Under the pieces are notes generated by a model. That model ran no database searches, was not told where the DNA came from, and was given only the letters and a program-made list of their open reading frames with translations. 43,922 nt of DNA from a virus: IMG/VR virus record IMGVR_UViG_3300037225_000162, positions 1-43,922 of that record. One strand, given 5' to 3'. How positions within the stretch are numbered: position 1 is the stretch's first letter; each line of letters starts with the position of its first letter. This document shows positions 4,469 to 27,434 of this stretch, in pieces. Both the position numbers and the translations under genes were made by a program.

Positions 4469-5671
4469 ATGAAGATACTTGCAAGTGCCGATTGGCATGT
4501 AAGAGACAAGGATATTGAAGAAATAGAAAAATGCCTAGGCGTGTTAGTGGCCACGGCTTTGGTGGAAAAAGTAAGCGTGGCCATTATTGCCGGTGATATT
4601 TTCGACAGCAGGGATATTAAATTAGACAGCTTGAGCGCGAAACTGGTTATTAAGACAATTTCAGCATTGGCCGATATTTGTCCCGTAGCTATAATAACAG
4701 GAACACCAAGTCATGAAGGTACGGCAACGGACATCCTTCAAGTTATCAGGGGTGATTGTGATATCCACGTCGCAACAAAACCCGAACAAGTATATTTACA
4801 GAAGCATGAATTTTTTAGCCGATCTGGGCTTGGCGCAAAATGGGACGCGGTTATCACCCTTATACCCACCCCAACAAAACAGTTCTTCCAGACGGAAAGC
4901 GGGATTGCGGAATCGAATGAAGAAATTGCTCAAGCAATGAACGGCTTATTTGCCGGCTTCGGCGCTCAGGCTCACGATTATCCCAACATTCCCCACATCC
5001 TCATAGGGCACTGGAACGTATCTGGCTCAATCCTCCCGACCGGCCAGGTTATGACCGGCAAGGATATCGACATCGGATATGATTCAATGATGTTGGCCTG
5101 TTCCGATCTGATTTGCCTAGGGCATATCCATAAGGCCCAGCAGATAGGCGAACGCGCGTTCTATCCCGGCTCTCTTTATCCGTTGACGTGGGGCGAATTA
5201 GAAGCAAAGGGCTTTTATATTCACACGCTGGACGGCCACAAGTTGATTGAATCCCGGTTTATCGAAACGCCGACAAGAAAATTATGCCGCGTTTCCGCTG
5301 ATTACACAAAAGCACCATTACCAGAGAAATGCGAAGACTTCGCTTATCAGCTTACCTCTGAAATTATAAGCAGCGAATGCGAGGGCGCGTCTGTCCGATG
5401 CGACTTTACTGTATGGCAGGACGAGGCTGCATTAATCCCCAAGGAAGAAATAAAGCAACTTTATCTCGATGCTGGCGCCATCGATGCCGACATTCGCATA
5501 ATAAGAATTCCCCGCGAAACCGTCCGAAGCGAAGCCGTTTTAAAAGTTAATTCTCTCCGCGATAAGATTAAGGCAATGGCCGATCTACGCGGGGAAACGG
5601 TTTCCGAATCCATTCTTCAAAAAGCCGACCTTCTGGAATTTAGGGAAATTGTTCAGGAGGTGGCAGCATGA
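4469..5671 (+). CDS. sbcD-like: SbcD/Mre11-like nuclease subunit
   Basis: 400 residues, start after TTGGAGGCCGGAAA. Calcineurin-type metallophosphoesterase motifs are in order: ADWH (D8, H10), GDIFD (D43, D46), GTPSHEG (about 78-84, where most family members have GNHD), a GHWN about residue 178 and GHIH near 218. SbcD/Mre11 supplies the Mn-dependent nuclease of a complex with SbcC/Rad50 and processes DNA ends and hairpins. The stop overlaps the SbcC start (ATGA), as expected for equimolar partners. In phages such pairs (T4 gp47/gp46, T5 D12/D13) serve recombination-dependent replication and host DNA degradation. The loss of the canonical Asn-His-Asp order in motif III is notable. Confidence 0.9.
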   Translation: MKILASADWHVRDKDIEEIEKCLGVLVATALVEKVSVAIIAGDIFDSRDIKLDSLSAKLVIKTISALADICPVAIITGTPSHEGTATDILQVIRGDCDIHVATKPEQVYLQKHEFFSRSGLGAKWDAVITLIPTPTKQFFQTESGIAESNEEIAQAMNGLFAGFGAQAHDYPNIPHILIGHWNVSGSILPTGQVMTGKDIDIGYDSMMLACSDLICLGHIHKAQQIGERAFYPGSLYPLTWGELEAKGFYIHTLDGHKLIESRFIETPTRKLCRVSADYTKAPLPEKCEDFAYQLTSEIISSECEGASVRCDFTVWQDEAALIPKEEIKQLYLDAGAIDADIRIIRIPRETVRSEAVLKVNSLRDKIKAMADLRGETVSESILQKADLLEFREIVQEVAA

Positions 5672-8172
5672 AAATATTAACCCTACGCCTTAAAGGATTT
5701 ATTGGTATTAAGATGGGTCCAAATCGGGATATGTCCGGCCCCGATGAAATCACCATCGATTTCTCAAAAACATCCGGACTGACCGCCCTTGATGGAATCA
5801 ATGGCACCGGCAAGTCAACCGTACTGGAAAACCTGCACCCTTACCCCACGCTGGCCTCGCGCTCCGGAGCGTTATTTAATCATGTTTATATCCGCAATGC
5901 CGAAAAGGAGTTTTCTTTCGCCTATCAGGGCGATCATTACCGGACGCTGTTAAAGATTGATTGTCAATCCGAAAAAACAGAGGGCTATATTTATAAGAAT
6001 GGGGCCACAAAATCAGAGACAACCGGCAAGATCAAGGAATACAGCAAATACATAGCTAACCTTCTTGGCTCTGAGCTCATGTTTTTTAACAGCGTGTTTT
6101 GCGCTCAAAATTCCACGAAGTTATCAGACATGAAAACCGCCGAATTTAAGACTTTGCTCGGCGAATTTATAGGCAGCCAGAAATATGTTGGATGGGAAGA
6201 TGATTGCAAAGATAAGATTACGGCAGTAACCGGCCAACTCGAACAGATTGAGAAAAGGCTTCTTGTTGTTAACAACAAACTGGCCGGATTTGGAGATATC
6301 AAAGCTAAACTAGCAACGGCCCATGATGACCTGGTCGCGCAGGAAAAAACGATAAAGCAGCTGCGGACTCAAAAGGCAAAATATCAGGATAAACTTGAAA
6401 GCCTGAAAGAGAAGAAATCCAATCAGGAAGTTCTAATCGCTCAAAAGGCGAACATCGAAGCCCGTATTAAAGAGCTTGAAACTCAATTAGGTAAAGAGCA
6501 ATACGATGCCGATACCGACCTTAATTCTCTAAGGGTAGCCTATAAAGACCTTCAAGGCCAAATCAAAAAAGATGAAGAACTACTGCAACTGGCCGATGAT
6601 ATTAATGTGGCAGCGGATAAGGAAAAGGAAATTCAGGAAGAACTTGAAATCCTCACAGCCAAATTTGATAAACTTACGATGGAAGGACCTGAGAAAAATC
6701 AGGCTGTCCATGATCTTGAAATAAAAATAACAACTATTTACCAACAACAAAAAAGTCTTTTGACGGATCCTGAAAATTTACGTCTCGGAAAACTGGTTGA
6801 TGAAGCAGAAAGAGCAGTTGCTGACAGGGAACGTCAAATAAAAGACCTTTCTAATGATTCCCAACTTGCAGCCATTGAAGAACAAATAAAAAGCATCGAG
6901 AAAGCTGCAAAGGTTGGTGAAGGTATTAAGGCAGACTGTAAAGAAACTACCTGCGGAGCTATTGCGGCAGTTCTGGAAGCAAAAGAACAATTACCTCTTT
7001 CCATTGAAAAGCGTGAAGCGCGGAAACAAATTATAAACGAAACGGTAATAAATCTAAAGAGCGCAATCGCTGATATTAAGGAATTAACAGAAACTGTTTT
7101 GAATGAAAAGATGGCATTGATGGAATCAATTAAGCAATTTAACGAGAATATAAAAAGCGATATTAAGAGTGCCACCGAAGAGTTAGAAAACGCGAAAAAG
7201 TTTGTTTCCGAAACCAATGAAGCCATAAATAAATACCGGCAAGAACTCGCCACGCTTCGTTTTGAACTCGGAAAAAACAAGGACCTTGCCGCCAAAAAGA
7301 CCGCTCTGGAAGTGGCAAAGACTCAATACGATAATGTCACGCGCCAGATGGAAGAAAACGTGGCCAGAGGCAAAGAGCTAAAGGTTAAATGGGAAAACCG
7401 CAAGATCGATCTGGACGGTAGCATTAAAGATGCGTCTGCTTCACTTAACGAGATTAACGGGAGAATTGACAATGATATTGAGGCTCAAATATCGCTGATA
7501 GCAATCGGGCAATACAATATTGATCGTGACCTGCCGGAAATGGAATTAAACCTTAATACTATCCGCGCATCAATTATGCGCTTTGAATCCGATCTGGAAG
7601 TAAAAGGCGAAGTTGAGAGCGAGATTGAAACTGCGCGCATGGAAAAGGAAAAGCTTCAGCAAGACATTTCAGACTGGACATATCTTAAAATCGCCTGCGG
7701 AAAGAACGGTCTGCAGGCCATGGAAATAGCAGGAGCCGCGCCGATAATAACCTCTTTCGCTAATCAGCTTTTAACTCGGACATTCAACTGCATTTCTACG
7801 GTTAGACTTCGCACACTGGATGATGAAGGGAAGGAATGTTTGGGCATTCTGATCATGGGAGATGACGGCAAAGAAACTTTGTTGGATAACCTTTCAGGAG
7901 GGCAGAAAGTTCCCTGCCTCATGGCGCTCAGGCTCGCAATGACCTTGTTGAACAAAGAGAAATCCGGAAGGAACTTTGAAACGTTCTTCAGTGACGAAAT
8001 GGACGGAGCACTTGACCCTGAAAACGCTCTGAACTTCGTCAATATGTATCGGTCGTTTATGGAGATAGGAGCCTTTCAGGACGGTTATTTCATCAGTCAC
8101 AAACCGCCTTGCAGGGCTTTGGCCGATAACAATTTAATGTTTGAGGCCGGGAAAAATCCGGCGTGGAGTTAG
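5668..8172 (+). CDS. sbcC-like: SbcC/Rad50-like ATPase subunit
   Basis: 834 residues, start overlapping the sbcD-like stop, with CAGGAGGTGGCAGC upstream. Walker A is GINGTGKST (about 45-53), the ABC signature is LSGGQK (about 743-748) and Walker B is FFSDEMDGALD (about 772-782). Between them lie two long coiled-coil arms. The arm tip has C424 and C429 (CKETTC), a CX4C pair in the position of the zinc hook, which is CXXC in cellular SbcC/Rad50. With SbcD it would form an ATP-driven nuclease that handles DNA ends during phage recombination or replication. Length is shorter than bacterial SbcC (about 1050), consistent with phage versions. Confidence 0.9.
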   Translation: MKILTLRLKGFIGIKMGPNRDMSGPDEITIDFSKTSGLTALDGINGTGKSTVLENLHPYPTLASRSGALFNHVYIRNAEKEFSFAYQGDHYRTLLKIDCQSEKTEGYIYKNGATKSETTGKIKEYSKYIANLLGSELMFFNSVFCAQNSTKLSDMKTAEFKTLLGEFIGSQKYVGWEDDCKDKITAVTGQLEQIEKRLLVVNNKLAGFGDIKAKLATAHDDLVAQEKTIKQLRTQKAKYQDKLESLKEKKSNQEVLIAQKANIEARIKELETQLGKEQYDADTDLNSLRVAYKDLQGQIKKDEELLQLADDINVAADKEKEIQEELEILTAKFDKLTMEGPEKNQAVHDLEIKITTIYQQQKSLLTDPENLRLGKLVDEAERAVADRERQIKDLSNDSQLAAIEEQIKSIEKAAKVGEGIKADCKETTCGAIAAVLEAKEQLPLSIEKREARKQIINETVINLKSAIADIKELTETVLNEKMALMESIKQFNENIKSDIKSATEELENAKKFVSETNEAINKYRQELATLRFELGKNKDLAAKKTALEVAKTQYDNVTRQMEENVARGKELKVKWENRKIDLDGSIKDASASLNEINGRIDNDIEAQISLIAIGQYNIDRDLPEMELNLNTIRASIMRFESDLEVKGEVESEIETARMEKEKLQQDISDWTYLKIACGKNGLQAMEIAGAAPIITSFANQLLTRTFNCISTVRLRTLDDEGKECLGILIMGDDGKETLLDNLSGGQKVPCLMALRLAMTLLNKEKSGRNFETFFSDEMDGALDPENALNFVNMYRSFMEIGAFQDGYFISHKPPCRALADNNLMFEAGKNPAWS

Positions 8173-24579: not shown

Positions 24580-25391
24580 ATCGGCGCTACCCTCTGATAT
24601 TGCTGTAAAAGTTTTTTCGCATCATCGGTTAAATCCGTCCGCGAATAGGTTGTCGTTTCCGTTCCCATGTGGACGCTTAATAATCCTATGCGCTCGCGCT
24701 GTTTGTATTTCAGGGCGATAAGGTCAATCGTTACCTGCTCAATTTCGTAAGGAATAGTTTGATATCCGGCATCGTAATTAATGGCGATATTCTGGATGCC
24801 TTTTTCAAAAACACCGTTTTTCAGATAGAGCGTTTTAATGTCGAACAAATAACCGATTGATCCGCTTCCCTGAACGTAAGGACTGATTGACCTGCCATCA
24901 ATGGTAAGGCTATTTAAAGCCACTACCGGATAATCATAAAACGGCATGACAGCATGTCCGTTTCCGTTCCTGTTTTCCGTACAGGTTTTAATTGTGAAAA
25001 TCCGGTCAAGGTGCGTCTGGATAAACGAACTTGAGGACGTAACAAGCCTCTGAATCAATGACGGCGGGGCGGTCATCATTTCGGGCAAATAAGCAATAGC
25101 ATTCTGGACGGTCGTGAGGTCAATTTCATTGGCTTCGTAAACAGTGATCACCCAGGCGGCAAAGGTGCCAGCTAAATTAAAACTGATCACTGTTACGACC
25201 AAATCGCCGGTTGTAGGATTATAGCTTTTTACCGTTCCGGCCATCCATGCAAGGGAACTGCCACCAGTCGCCTTAACAGCGGAAATAATTGTCACCGTCT
25301 GGCCTACCGCAAAGGCAAGATTAGCCTGAGTAGTAAAAGTGTTATCCCCTGTCGCTATCGCTATTGATGCTACCGATGTTCCTGTAATCAT
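24576..25391 (-). CDS. Head-tail connector (gp6-like) with N-terminal beta domain
   Basis: 271 residues. The C-terminal two thirds (LIQRLVTSSSSFIQTHLDR, YDYPVVALNSLTIDG and IALKYKQRERIGLLSV) match gp6/gp15-type connector proteins that form a ring under the portal. Residues 1 to about 90 (GTSVASIAIATGDNTFTTQA) form a separate beta domain of the kind found in tail fibres and virion decoration, an unusual fusion. The ATG overlaps the stop of the start-codon-less frame 25388-25507. Confidence 0.75.
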   Translation of the reverse strand: MITGTSVASIAIATGDNTFTTQANLAFAVGQTVTIISAVKATGGSSLAWMAGTVKSYNPTTGDLVVTVISFNLAGTFAAWVITVYEANEIDLTTVQNAIAYLPEMMTAPPSLIQRLVTSSSSFIQTHLDRIFTIKTCTENRNGNGHAVMPFYDYPVVALNSLTIDGRSISPYVQGSGSIGYLFDIKTLYLKNGVFEKGIQNIAINYDAGYQTIPYEIEQVTIDLIALKYKQRERIGLLSVHMGTETTTYSRTDLTDDAKKLLQQYQRVAPI

Positions 25392-25507
25392 TTCCTGCGT
25401 CCTTTTCTCAAATTATCCGCTGAACTCCATTGAATCTTGGCGCGGTCTTTTTGAGAGGCCCTTAAAAACTCGCCTAGGTCTTCGATTTCTTCCCCGCCAA
25501 CGGTTAT
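25388..25507 (-). other. 39-residue extension frame without start codon (possible -1 frameshift product)
   Basis: The frame ITVGGEEIEDLGEFLRASQ...DNLRKGRRK follows the stop of the 25504-25845 gene in the -1 phase. It has no ATG, GTG or TTG usable as a start after an in-frame TAA upstream. The upstream gene ends TCA AAA AAA TAA, i.e. slippery A AAA AAA immediately before a stop; a -1 slip reads ATA ACC and continues for 39 residues. The stop of this frame overlaps the next gene's ATG (ATGA), strong evidence of coding. Options are programmed frameshift, AUA initiation or a lost start codon. Confidence 0.65.
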
Positions 25508-25845
25508 TTTTTTGAGAGCCCTTTAAGATAAGACATCGCCTTAACGTAATTGGCCTTCAAAATTTTATCGATGCTATCAACGCCCATTTCTTCCAAAAAC
25601 TTAGGAAGGTCGGCTTTTTTAGCATCAATTACTTGCGAAAGATTCTTTAACTGGCCTTTGCTTAAGGCATCGGCATTGGCTGTTCCTTCCTCTTTATCGG
25701 GAACATGGCCGACCATTACAGCGCCGTGATGCCTGATAAGGATTTCAGCAACATGATCAGGCACGGTGATATGGCCATTTTTATCGGCCTCATAATTATC
25801 ATCACCATGTCCGGCCGAACTTCCGAGGATTTTAACTTTTTTCAT
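25504..25845 (-). CDS. Small phage protein downstream of capsid (possibly frameshifted)
   Basis: 113 residues. An N-terminal segment (MKKVKILGSSAGHGDDNYEA ... VPDHVAEILIRHHGAV) is followed by a linker and helices (LPKFLEEMGVDSIDKIL). It lies between the major capsid protein and the connector, where head-decoration or scaffold-associated genes are common. The last codons are a slippery A run that could extend it to about 152 residues. No family is certain. Confidence 0.65.
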   Translation of the reverse strand: MKKVKILGSSAGHGDDNYEADKNGHITVPDHVAEILIRHHGAVMVGHVPDKEEGTANADALSKGQLKNLSQVIDAKKADLPKFLEEMGVDSIDKILKANYVKAMSYLKGLSKK

Positions 25846-25910: not shown

Positions 25911-27434
25911 TTAAGACGGCTGGATGCAGTTAATGACGCAAAATGCAAACGGCGCATAGCACTGTAAAACGCCATCGGCATACAGTCCGTACTCATAGCG
26001 TCTCTTAACCATCGGCCAGTCAATGGACCAGTAATCGCGCCGCAATTTCTTCTTGACGATTTCGCCGACATCATTCAGCGGGTAAGGCACTGAATTTGAC
26101 CATCCCAACATCGTACCGGCGGGCATGTTGGGATGAACGATGATCTTGACGGCCTTATTCACAACAGGATTGAGGATTGAAGTGATTACCACGCCGACAT
26201 CAATGCCGGTGCCGTGGCCGGTTGCGTCAAGGTTGTAACGTAACAGCGGGGCCGAACCGTTGGCGATACAGATCGCGTTCATGTCGATCAGCTGCTTGCT
26301 GGACACGTACAGTTCATCAATGCCAAGCCTGAAATAATCCCACATATAGGAAAAGGCCGTGTCAAGCTGGCTTATTCCCGCCGCGCCGTTTGAAGTCAGT
26401 TTCCCGTTGACGTTCTGGACGTAAGCGCCGTTTGCGGTATTCATAATCTGAGTCAGCATACCGTCATAGACCAAAGCCTGAATTGAGTTGTCCGTTGCGG
26501 ACAAATCGCTAAATTTCTGGTTCGTGTTCACAGCTTCGGCGGTGAAGGTCTGCGTACTGGTTGCCGTCATGGAATGCAGATACATTGCATTTGCGGCGGT
26601 TCCGATGTACCAGACATAAGCGACTGCGCCCGCGAGCGGGGTTGCCGTGACAATCAGTTCATGTCCGGCCGTAACGCTCTGGCTCTTGACATTCGAGGGA
26701 ATACCGGTTCCGCCATTGATGGTGTCGGTCGAGCCGTCAACGTTAGTGCGGGTGTATTTCTGGAGCAGACCTTTGGTAATATCTGTGGCCTGTCCGGTTA
26801 ATCCCATATTCCAGCCGGCTAACTGCTGATAACCGGCCATGGTGACAGGAACTACGCCGATATAATAAGTGGTGCCTGTCAGAGTACCACCCGTTACCGA
26901 ACCGCCATCGCTGGAAGTCAGCGTTAAGGGAGTTGCGCTTATGCCGTTGATACCCACGCCGCCCAGGTCGTTAAATTCTTCCTGGATCATCAGGGACCAA
27001 AGCAGCTGAAGCTTGGCTTCGCTCAACAGGTCGATGAAAGTTTTGGAAGCGTTTTCTGCTTTGTGAGTGACCCAATTTTCCAGACCATACTCGACAAAGG
27101 CCGCATTTGCGCGATAGGTGGAATACCCGACCACGCCGCCTCTGTTGCCTTCCGATACGCCCATGTGGACGTTGTTAGGGTTAATCCCTGATATGACCTG
27201 CCAGTTTGCCTGAGTTGAGAATCCGGACACATCGCGGGGGATTTTATTCCGAAGCGGTGTTATTACCGGGAAAAGGTGTTTTGCAACGGGTTCAAGATCA
27301 TACCCGATTAATCCGGCTGTTGCGCTGCCGGGCTGCGTAAATGCACGTAAAATATCTGCTTCGAGAGCGGCCGGTTTATCATGCGCAGTTCTCATAAGGT
27401 CCATCGTTTCTTTGGTTATCGCTTGAAGATTCAT
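25911..27434 (-). CDS. Major capsid protein, HK97 fold, with insertion
   Basis: 507 residues, start after TTTTAAGGAGGAAATATAAG. N-terminal and C-terminal parts (PVAKHLFPVITPLRNKIPRD, GIDELYVSSKQLIDMN and RRYEYGLYADGVLQCYAPF) fit the HK97-fold major capsid family. About residues 165-300 (GTTYYIGVVPVTMAG, GHELIVTATPLAGAVAYVWY) look like an inserted Ig/fibronectin-like domain, probably exposed on the capsid surface. It follows the protease/scaffold gene as usual, but a strong hairpin terminator lies between them and another hairpin follows the gene. Confidence 0.85.
   Translation of the reverse strand: MNLQAITKETMDLMRTAHDKPAALEADILRAFTQPGSATAGLIGYDLEPVAKHLFPVITPLRNKIPRDVSGFSTQANWQVISGINPNNVHMGVSEGNRGGVVGYSTYRANAAFVEYGLENWVTHKAENASKTFIDLLSEAKLQLLWSLMIQEEFNDLGGVGINGISATPLTLTSSDGGSVTGGTLTGTTYYIGVVPVTMAGYQQLAGWNMGLTGQATDITKGLLQKYTRTNVDGSTDTINGGTGIPSNVKSQSVTAGHELIVTATPLAGAVAYVWYIGTAANAMYLHSMTATSTQTFTAEAVNTNQKFSDLSATDNSIQALVYDGMLTQIMNTANGAYVQNVNGKLTSNGAAGISQLDTAFSYMWDYFRLGIDELYVSSKQLIDMNAICIANGSAPLLRYNLDATGHGTGIDVGVVITSILNPVVNKAVKIIVHPNMPAGTMLGWSNSVPYPLNDVGEIVKKKLRRDYWSIDWPMVKRRYEYGLYADGVLQCYAPFAFCVINCIQPS

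Follow-up and report, generated by a model that had tools for sequence, protein, structure and literature searches.

How might a phage express a reading frame that follows on one head gene, runs into the start of the next and has no normal start codon of its own? The question is raised by a viral DNA of 43,922 nucleotides (IMG/VR record IMGVR_UViG_3300037225_000162, positions 1 to 43,922; hereafter the window), on the minus strand of which a gene for a small protein of 113 aa (25845–25504) lies between the capsid and connector genes. An earlier note, made from the letters alone, had claimed that this gene ends in TCA AAA AAA TAA, that the -1 frame, which lacks a normal start codon, continues for 39 residues and at its end overlaps the connector gene in ATGA, and that this would be either a second programmed frameshift in the head region or a gene initiated at AUA. 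Reading of the minus strand bears out the first three statements, and comparison with another phage species speaks for the frameshift and against the AUA gene. Judged from the sequences, the 113-aa gene probably gives rise, through a -1 slip on A AAA AAA, to a second form of 152 aa with a basic tail.

Genomic Setting and Probable Host

All genes called around the site lie on the minus strand. The major capsid protein gene (25911–27434, minus strand) was recognised from its position and from homology (PHROG 13692); the protein annotated as major head protein in Alicyclobacillus phage MMB025 shows about 26% identity to its product. The connector gene (25391–24576, minus strand) belongs with PHROG 442, head-tail adaptor, and is followed downstream by a tail-completion/Neck1 gene; portal and terminase were identified by Pfam. 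Elsewhere in the window, the plus strand carries two unusual repeat genes, a low-complexity ORF rich in Ala, Tyr and Asp (30–644) and a gene for a protein of NNQLTSLSVPEGI leucine-rich-like repeats (683–1834).

The same phage population is represented by a second contig (L058), which was binned with a Syntrophaceae MAG, matches the window at 99.6% over 5.3 kb and may stem from related samples. Its A7 run and frame are identical to those of the window and, as the contig was assembled separately, a sequencing error in the run is unlikely and was rejected as an explanation. The MAG match suggests a Syntrophaceae host, and the virus is thus probably an uncultured phage of Syntrophaceae bacteria.

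The 113-aa Gene and Its Product

The gene order capsid, small gene, connector is present in the window and in many relatives, in which the N-terminal domain of the 113-aa protein, with a conserved G and VP, stands at the equivalent place. The 113-aa gene is therefore of the type of small head-region gene that many phages carry between capsid and connector, and for whose product we know of no settled function. AlphaFold predicts a confident beta domain (residues 1–42) and a less certain helical part (residues 64–112). Close relatives of the protein were not found among viral contigs, no significant sequence match was obtained in Pfam or the PDB, and Foldseek with the structure model returned nothing at E <= 0.001. 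In a second-look structural alignment with VIA, B. subtilis YqbF (2hjq) ranked second (Z 3.6, rmsd 3.2, 50 aligned, residues 1–53), level with unrelated folds. The yqbF gene lies after the capsid gene of the B. subtilis skin prophage, so that the gene order agrees with that of the 113-aa gene; in this prophage, as in Mu, a small protein is encoded between capsid and connector. With the order in agreement and the fold match weak, the 113-aa protein is a candidate YqbF/HI1506-like protein whose membership is not established.

The Slip Site and the -1 Frame

The 113-aa ORF ends in GGG CTC TCA AAA AAA TAA, with its stop at 25506–25504, and the slippery heptamer A AAA AAA (25513–25507, minus strand) is in phase with the zero frame directly before this TAA. 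Upstream of AGG at 25522 the -1 frame is closed, so that the two frames overlap by about 6 codons, and the heptamer is located inside this short overlap. Entered by a slip at the heptamer, the -1 frame (25507–25388, minus strand) extends for 39 codons plus TGA and encodes ITVGGEEIEDLGEFLRASQKDRAKIQWSSADNLRKGRRK*; the stop (25390–25388) forms part of the ATGA (25391–25388, minus strand) in which the connector gene starts. Neither ATG nor GTG occurs among the -1 frame codons and the sole TTG stands 7 codons before the end, so that the beginning of the frame is free of all three; the first near-cognate start is ATA at 25507. The encoded tail is basic, its structure was predicted with low confidence when it was modelled alone, and the positions conserved in it read E.E...E..RA..K and IQW....N.R.G.R. 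Codon usage over this stretch favours the -1 frame (0.10 versus -0.51 and -0.32 per codon).

The heptamer has the form X XXY YYZ both here and in the relative described below (6679–6685 of that contig). The 12,491 codons of the phage contain 12 cases of in-frame A AAA AAR; the slip site alone is thus not rare and proves nothing, and its weight comes from the relative. A stimulatory element, either a downstream structure or an upstream Shine-Dalgarno-like site, is usual in -1 frameshifting, but not obligatory. Folding of the window revealed no significant RNA structure downstream of the heptamer. A weak Shine-Dalgarno-like AAAGGG (25524–25519, minus strand) lies 5 bases upstream of it, and is not claimed as a stimulator because this spacing is shorter than the approximately 10 bases of dnaX and because the element is absent in the relative.

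The window also holds a tail-chaperone pair (22622–22323/22308–21994, minus strand) with the usual gpG/gpGT-type frameshift layout, in which an in-phase A AAA AAA/A AAA AAG at codons 83–84 leads into the -1 frame of 22308–21994. The earlier note was thus justified in calling the head-region site a second one, and since the phage's own chaperone pair has an A AAA AAR site, the host ribosomes presumably slip on such sites.

Conservation in an Independent Relative

As the window was chosen for this very feature, only an independent relative can serve as a test, and one was available in the contig IMGVR_UViG_3300049914_000048 (L004), whose capsid and connector proteins are 71% and 59% identical to those of the window. 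Its homologue of the 113-aa gene encodes 67 aa (6521–6724) and reads GAT TCT GAA AAA AAA GAC, with A AAA AAA in phase at 6679–6685 within a run of eight A's. The zero-frame stop is not at the place equivalent to that in the window. In the -1 frame, a TGA stands immediately before the heptamer, after which the frame is open for 42 codons to a TGA at 6805–6807; the connector ATG follows at 6811, one codon past the tail stop (TGA-AAA-ATG). The relative thus has the same -1 relation, the same in-phase heptamer and, at 6685–6807, a homologous tail that has no start: ATG, GTG, TTG, CTG, ATT and ATC are all absent from the tail frame, and its sole ATA sits within the conserved IQW motif. In this phage, a 303-aa gene (5597–6508), which by its look is possibly a glycosyltransferase, is inserted after the capsid gene and before the small gene.

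The tail of the relative, RPRAAQREKEQEVENSPEQRRAALKRIQWGAPGNKRRGGR, aligns with that of the window and shares RIQWxxxxNxRxGR with it. The BLOSUM62 local score between the two tails is 53, which was equalled in 0 of 5,000 and 1 of 50,000 shuffles, and an ungapped block of 15 codons scores 41 with 7 identities in the -1 frame as compared with -6 and 8 in the other frames. Upstream of the tail, the two small genes differ in length by about 57 codons, yet the frame relation and the heptamer have been kept. At about 0.1% per codon for A AAA AAR, the chance of a heptamer in the 15-codon overlap of the relative is about 1–2%, before the right frame is required. The sequence arrangement, its identity in the second assembly and the conservation of the encoded protein in one further phage species are direct observations. 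Codon usage in the tail of the relative does not favour the -1 frame, no Shine-Dalgarno-like stimulator comparable to AAAGGG precedes its heptamer, and the 80 nt downstream fold marginally (z = -2.0), which is not unusual against its own genes.

Distribution of the Tail

Among everything searched, the tail was confined to these two phage species. More distant relatives keep the small gene, which ends without a tail before the connector begins. Searches of phage records with the 39-mer and with the tail of the relative gave zero matches at E up to 10. When the tail motif beside ATGAT was sought as a DNA pattern, viral contigs yielded the contig of the relative and chance matches only, and genome contigs yielded 48 stretches, of which tblastn and translation left only the second assembly as real. 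A pattern that included the slip site found the relative's contig and two chance matches, scanning with the fused alignment recovered that contig only, and genomes from the class and phylum of the host yielded only distant relatives, all without the tail. Relatives with an ATG at the position of the ATA, which would indicate a recently lost start, were looked for and none was seen.

Two small genes instead of one are found between capsid and connector in Alicyclobacillus phage MMB025 (L116, 3973–4459) and Thermoanaerobacterium phage THSA-485A (L117, 3864–4305); these pairs were rejected as equivalents of the tail, since they have their own annotated starts and the tail motif is missing. With regard to the connector, an additional N-terminal domain, about 90 residues long (25122–25391, minus strand, in the window; 6811–7080 in the relative), is present, among the connectors compared, only in the two tail-bearing phages, and sequence resembling it occurs inside proteins of other genomes (L102, L103).

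Proposed Mechanism and Alternative Explanations

In the mechanism that we consider likely, most ribosomes would read the 113-aa gene through to TAA, and a fraction would undergo tandem slippage on A AAA AAA, in which the two lysyl-tRNAs re-pair one base further back. The slipped ribosomes would cross the predicted junction ...GLSKK-ITVGGEEIEDLGEFLR, continue for 39 codons to give the 152-aa form with its basic C-terminal tail, and stop at the TGA overlapping the connector start. From the arrangement we infer the slippage itself, its ribosomal nature, its rate and its role.

Slippage during transcription, with an extra base inserted into the A7/A8 run by RNA polymerase and an in-frame fusion thus encoded by part of the mRNA, would give rise to an identical conserved arrangement, and both the eight A's of the relative and the failure of the foldings to reveal a ribosomal stimulator agree with it. 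Runs of 7–8 A's are, however, short for efficient polymerase slippage, and the heptamer is of the same type as that at the tail-chaperone frameshift. The phase necessary for ribosomal tandem slippage, which a polymerase has no need of, is kept in both phages, a weak argument considering that chance would produce it in about 2/9 of cases. We regard slippage by the polymerase as unlikely.

Less likely again is a broken gene, in which a change of a single base within the run of A's has cut off a formerly in-frame tail and left a remnant that is reached by background slippage only. Homopolymers are hot spots for indels and the distant relatives manage without the tail, but IQW....N.R.G has been kept between phages whose connectors have diverged to the identity given above, and no stop has entered the frame.

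The other possibility of the earlier note, a gene initiated at AUA, was considered here as a separate tiny gene started at 25507–25505 by coupling to the upstream stop, and is very improbable. In the window, this AUA overlaps the stop codon and the start of the tail resembles that of an ordinary small protein; AUA starts, however, are rare and inefficient, and the relative, with its upstream stop elsewhere, has neither an AUA at the equivalent place nor a near-cognate start before the conserved IQW. It is just as improbable that the frameshift mainly delivers ribosomes to the connector start, the tail peptide being incidental, because the close junctions (ATGA, TGA-AAA-ATG) and the Shine-Dalgarno-like sequence made by the Arg and Gly codons at the tail end are outweighed by the conserved IQW and N, which stand upstream of that stretch, and by the Shine-Dalgarno-like signal that the connector itself possesses.

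Significance and Comparison with Known Systems

The arrangement at the 113-aa gene looks like a real programmed -1 frameshift. Its general type is known, but no report of a frameshift in a small gene between capsid and connector was found in a largely open literature that was represented mostly by titles and abstracts. Outside the capsid gene itself, the locus is a conserved and testable candidate for programmed frameshifting among phage head genes, and also illustrates that a conserved tail without a start codon can escape gene callers. Two forms that differ by a basic tail would offer a handle on the small capsid-connector protein. As a guess, the tailed form may be a minor component of the head that touches DNA or the portal/connector vertex through its basic tail. 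A further idea, less likely than not, is that virion assembly uses a ratio of the two forms set by -1 frameshifting, with the tailed minor form marking a special place, for instance the packaged DNA or the vertex of portal and connector; if true, recoding would have a new role in phage heads, one comparable to that of gpG/gpGT in tails.

YqbF and the Mu gp35/HI1506-like proteins share with the 113-aa protein their place after the capsid and, in the case of 2hjq, a weak fold match; we know of no frameshift described for them. In dnaX (A AAA AAG), the slip site is accompanied by a hairpin and, about 10 nt upstream, by a Shine-Dalgarno-like signal. The Lys-Lys slippery heptamer is common to dnaX and the 113-aa gene, whereas the upstream signal and the hairpin are not convincingly present at the latter.

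Among head genes, gene 10A/10B of T7/T3 and the major head protein gene of Lactobacillus phage A2 use a -1 frameshift to produce a C-terminally extended second form of the capsid protein (PMC5009743). The present case is alike in that a head gene would undergo a -1 slip close to its end and give a longer product, and differs in that it concerns the small gene after the capsid gene, has a short basic tail and an A AAA AAA site, and is known from sequence. Frameshifts of tail-assembly chaperones, for example lambda gpG/gpGT, are widespread (PMC5009743, PMC10885494). Compared with these, the gene considered here is a head gene without a T-like part and its extension is much shorter; the two are alike in that a -1 frameshift near the gene end leads into a second frame, and a site of the A AAA AAR type is found at this phage's own chaperone pair as well.
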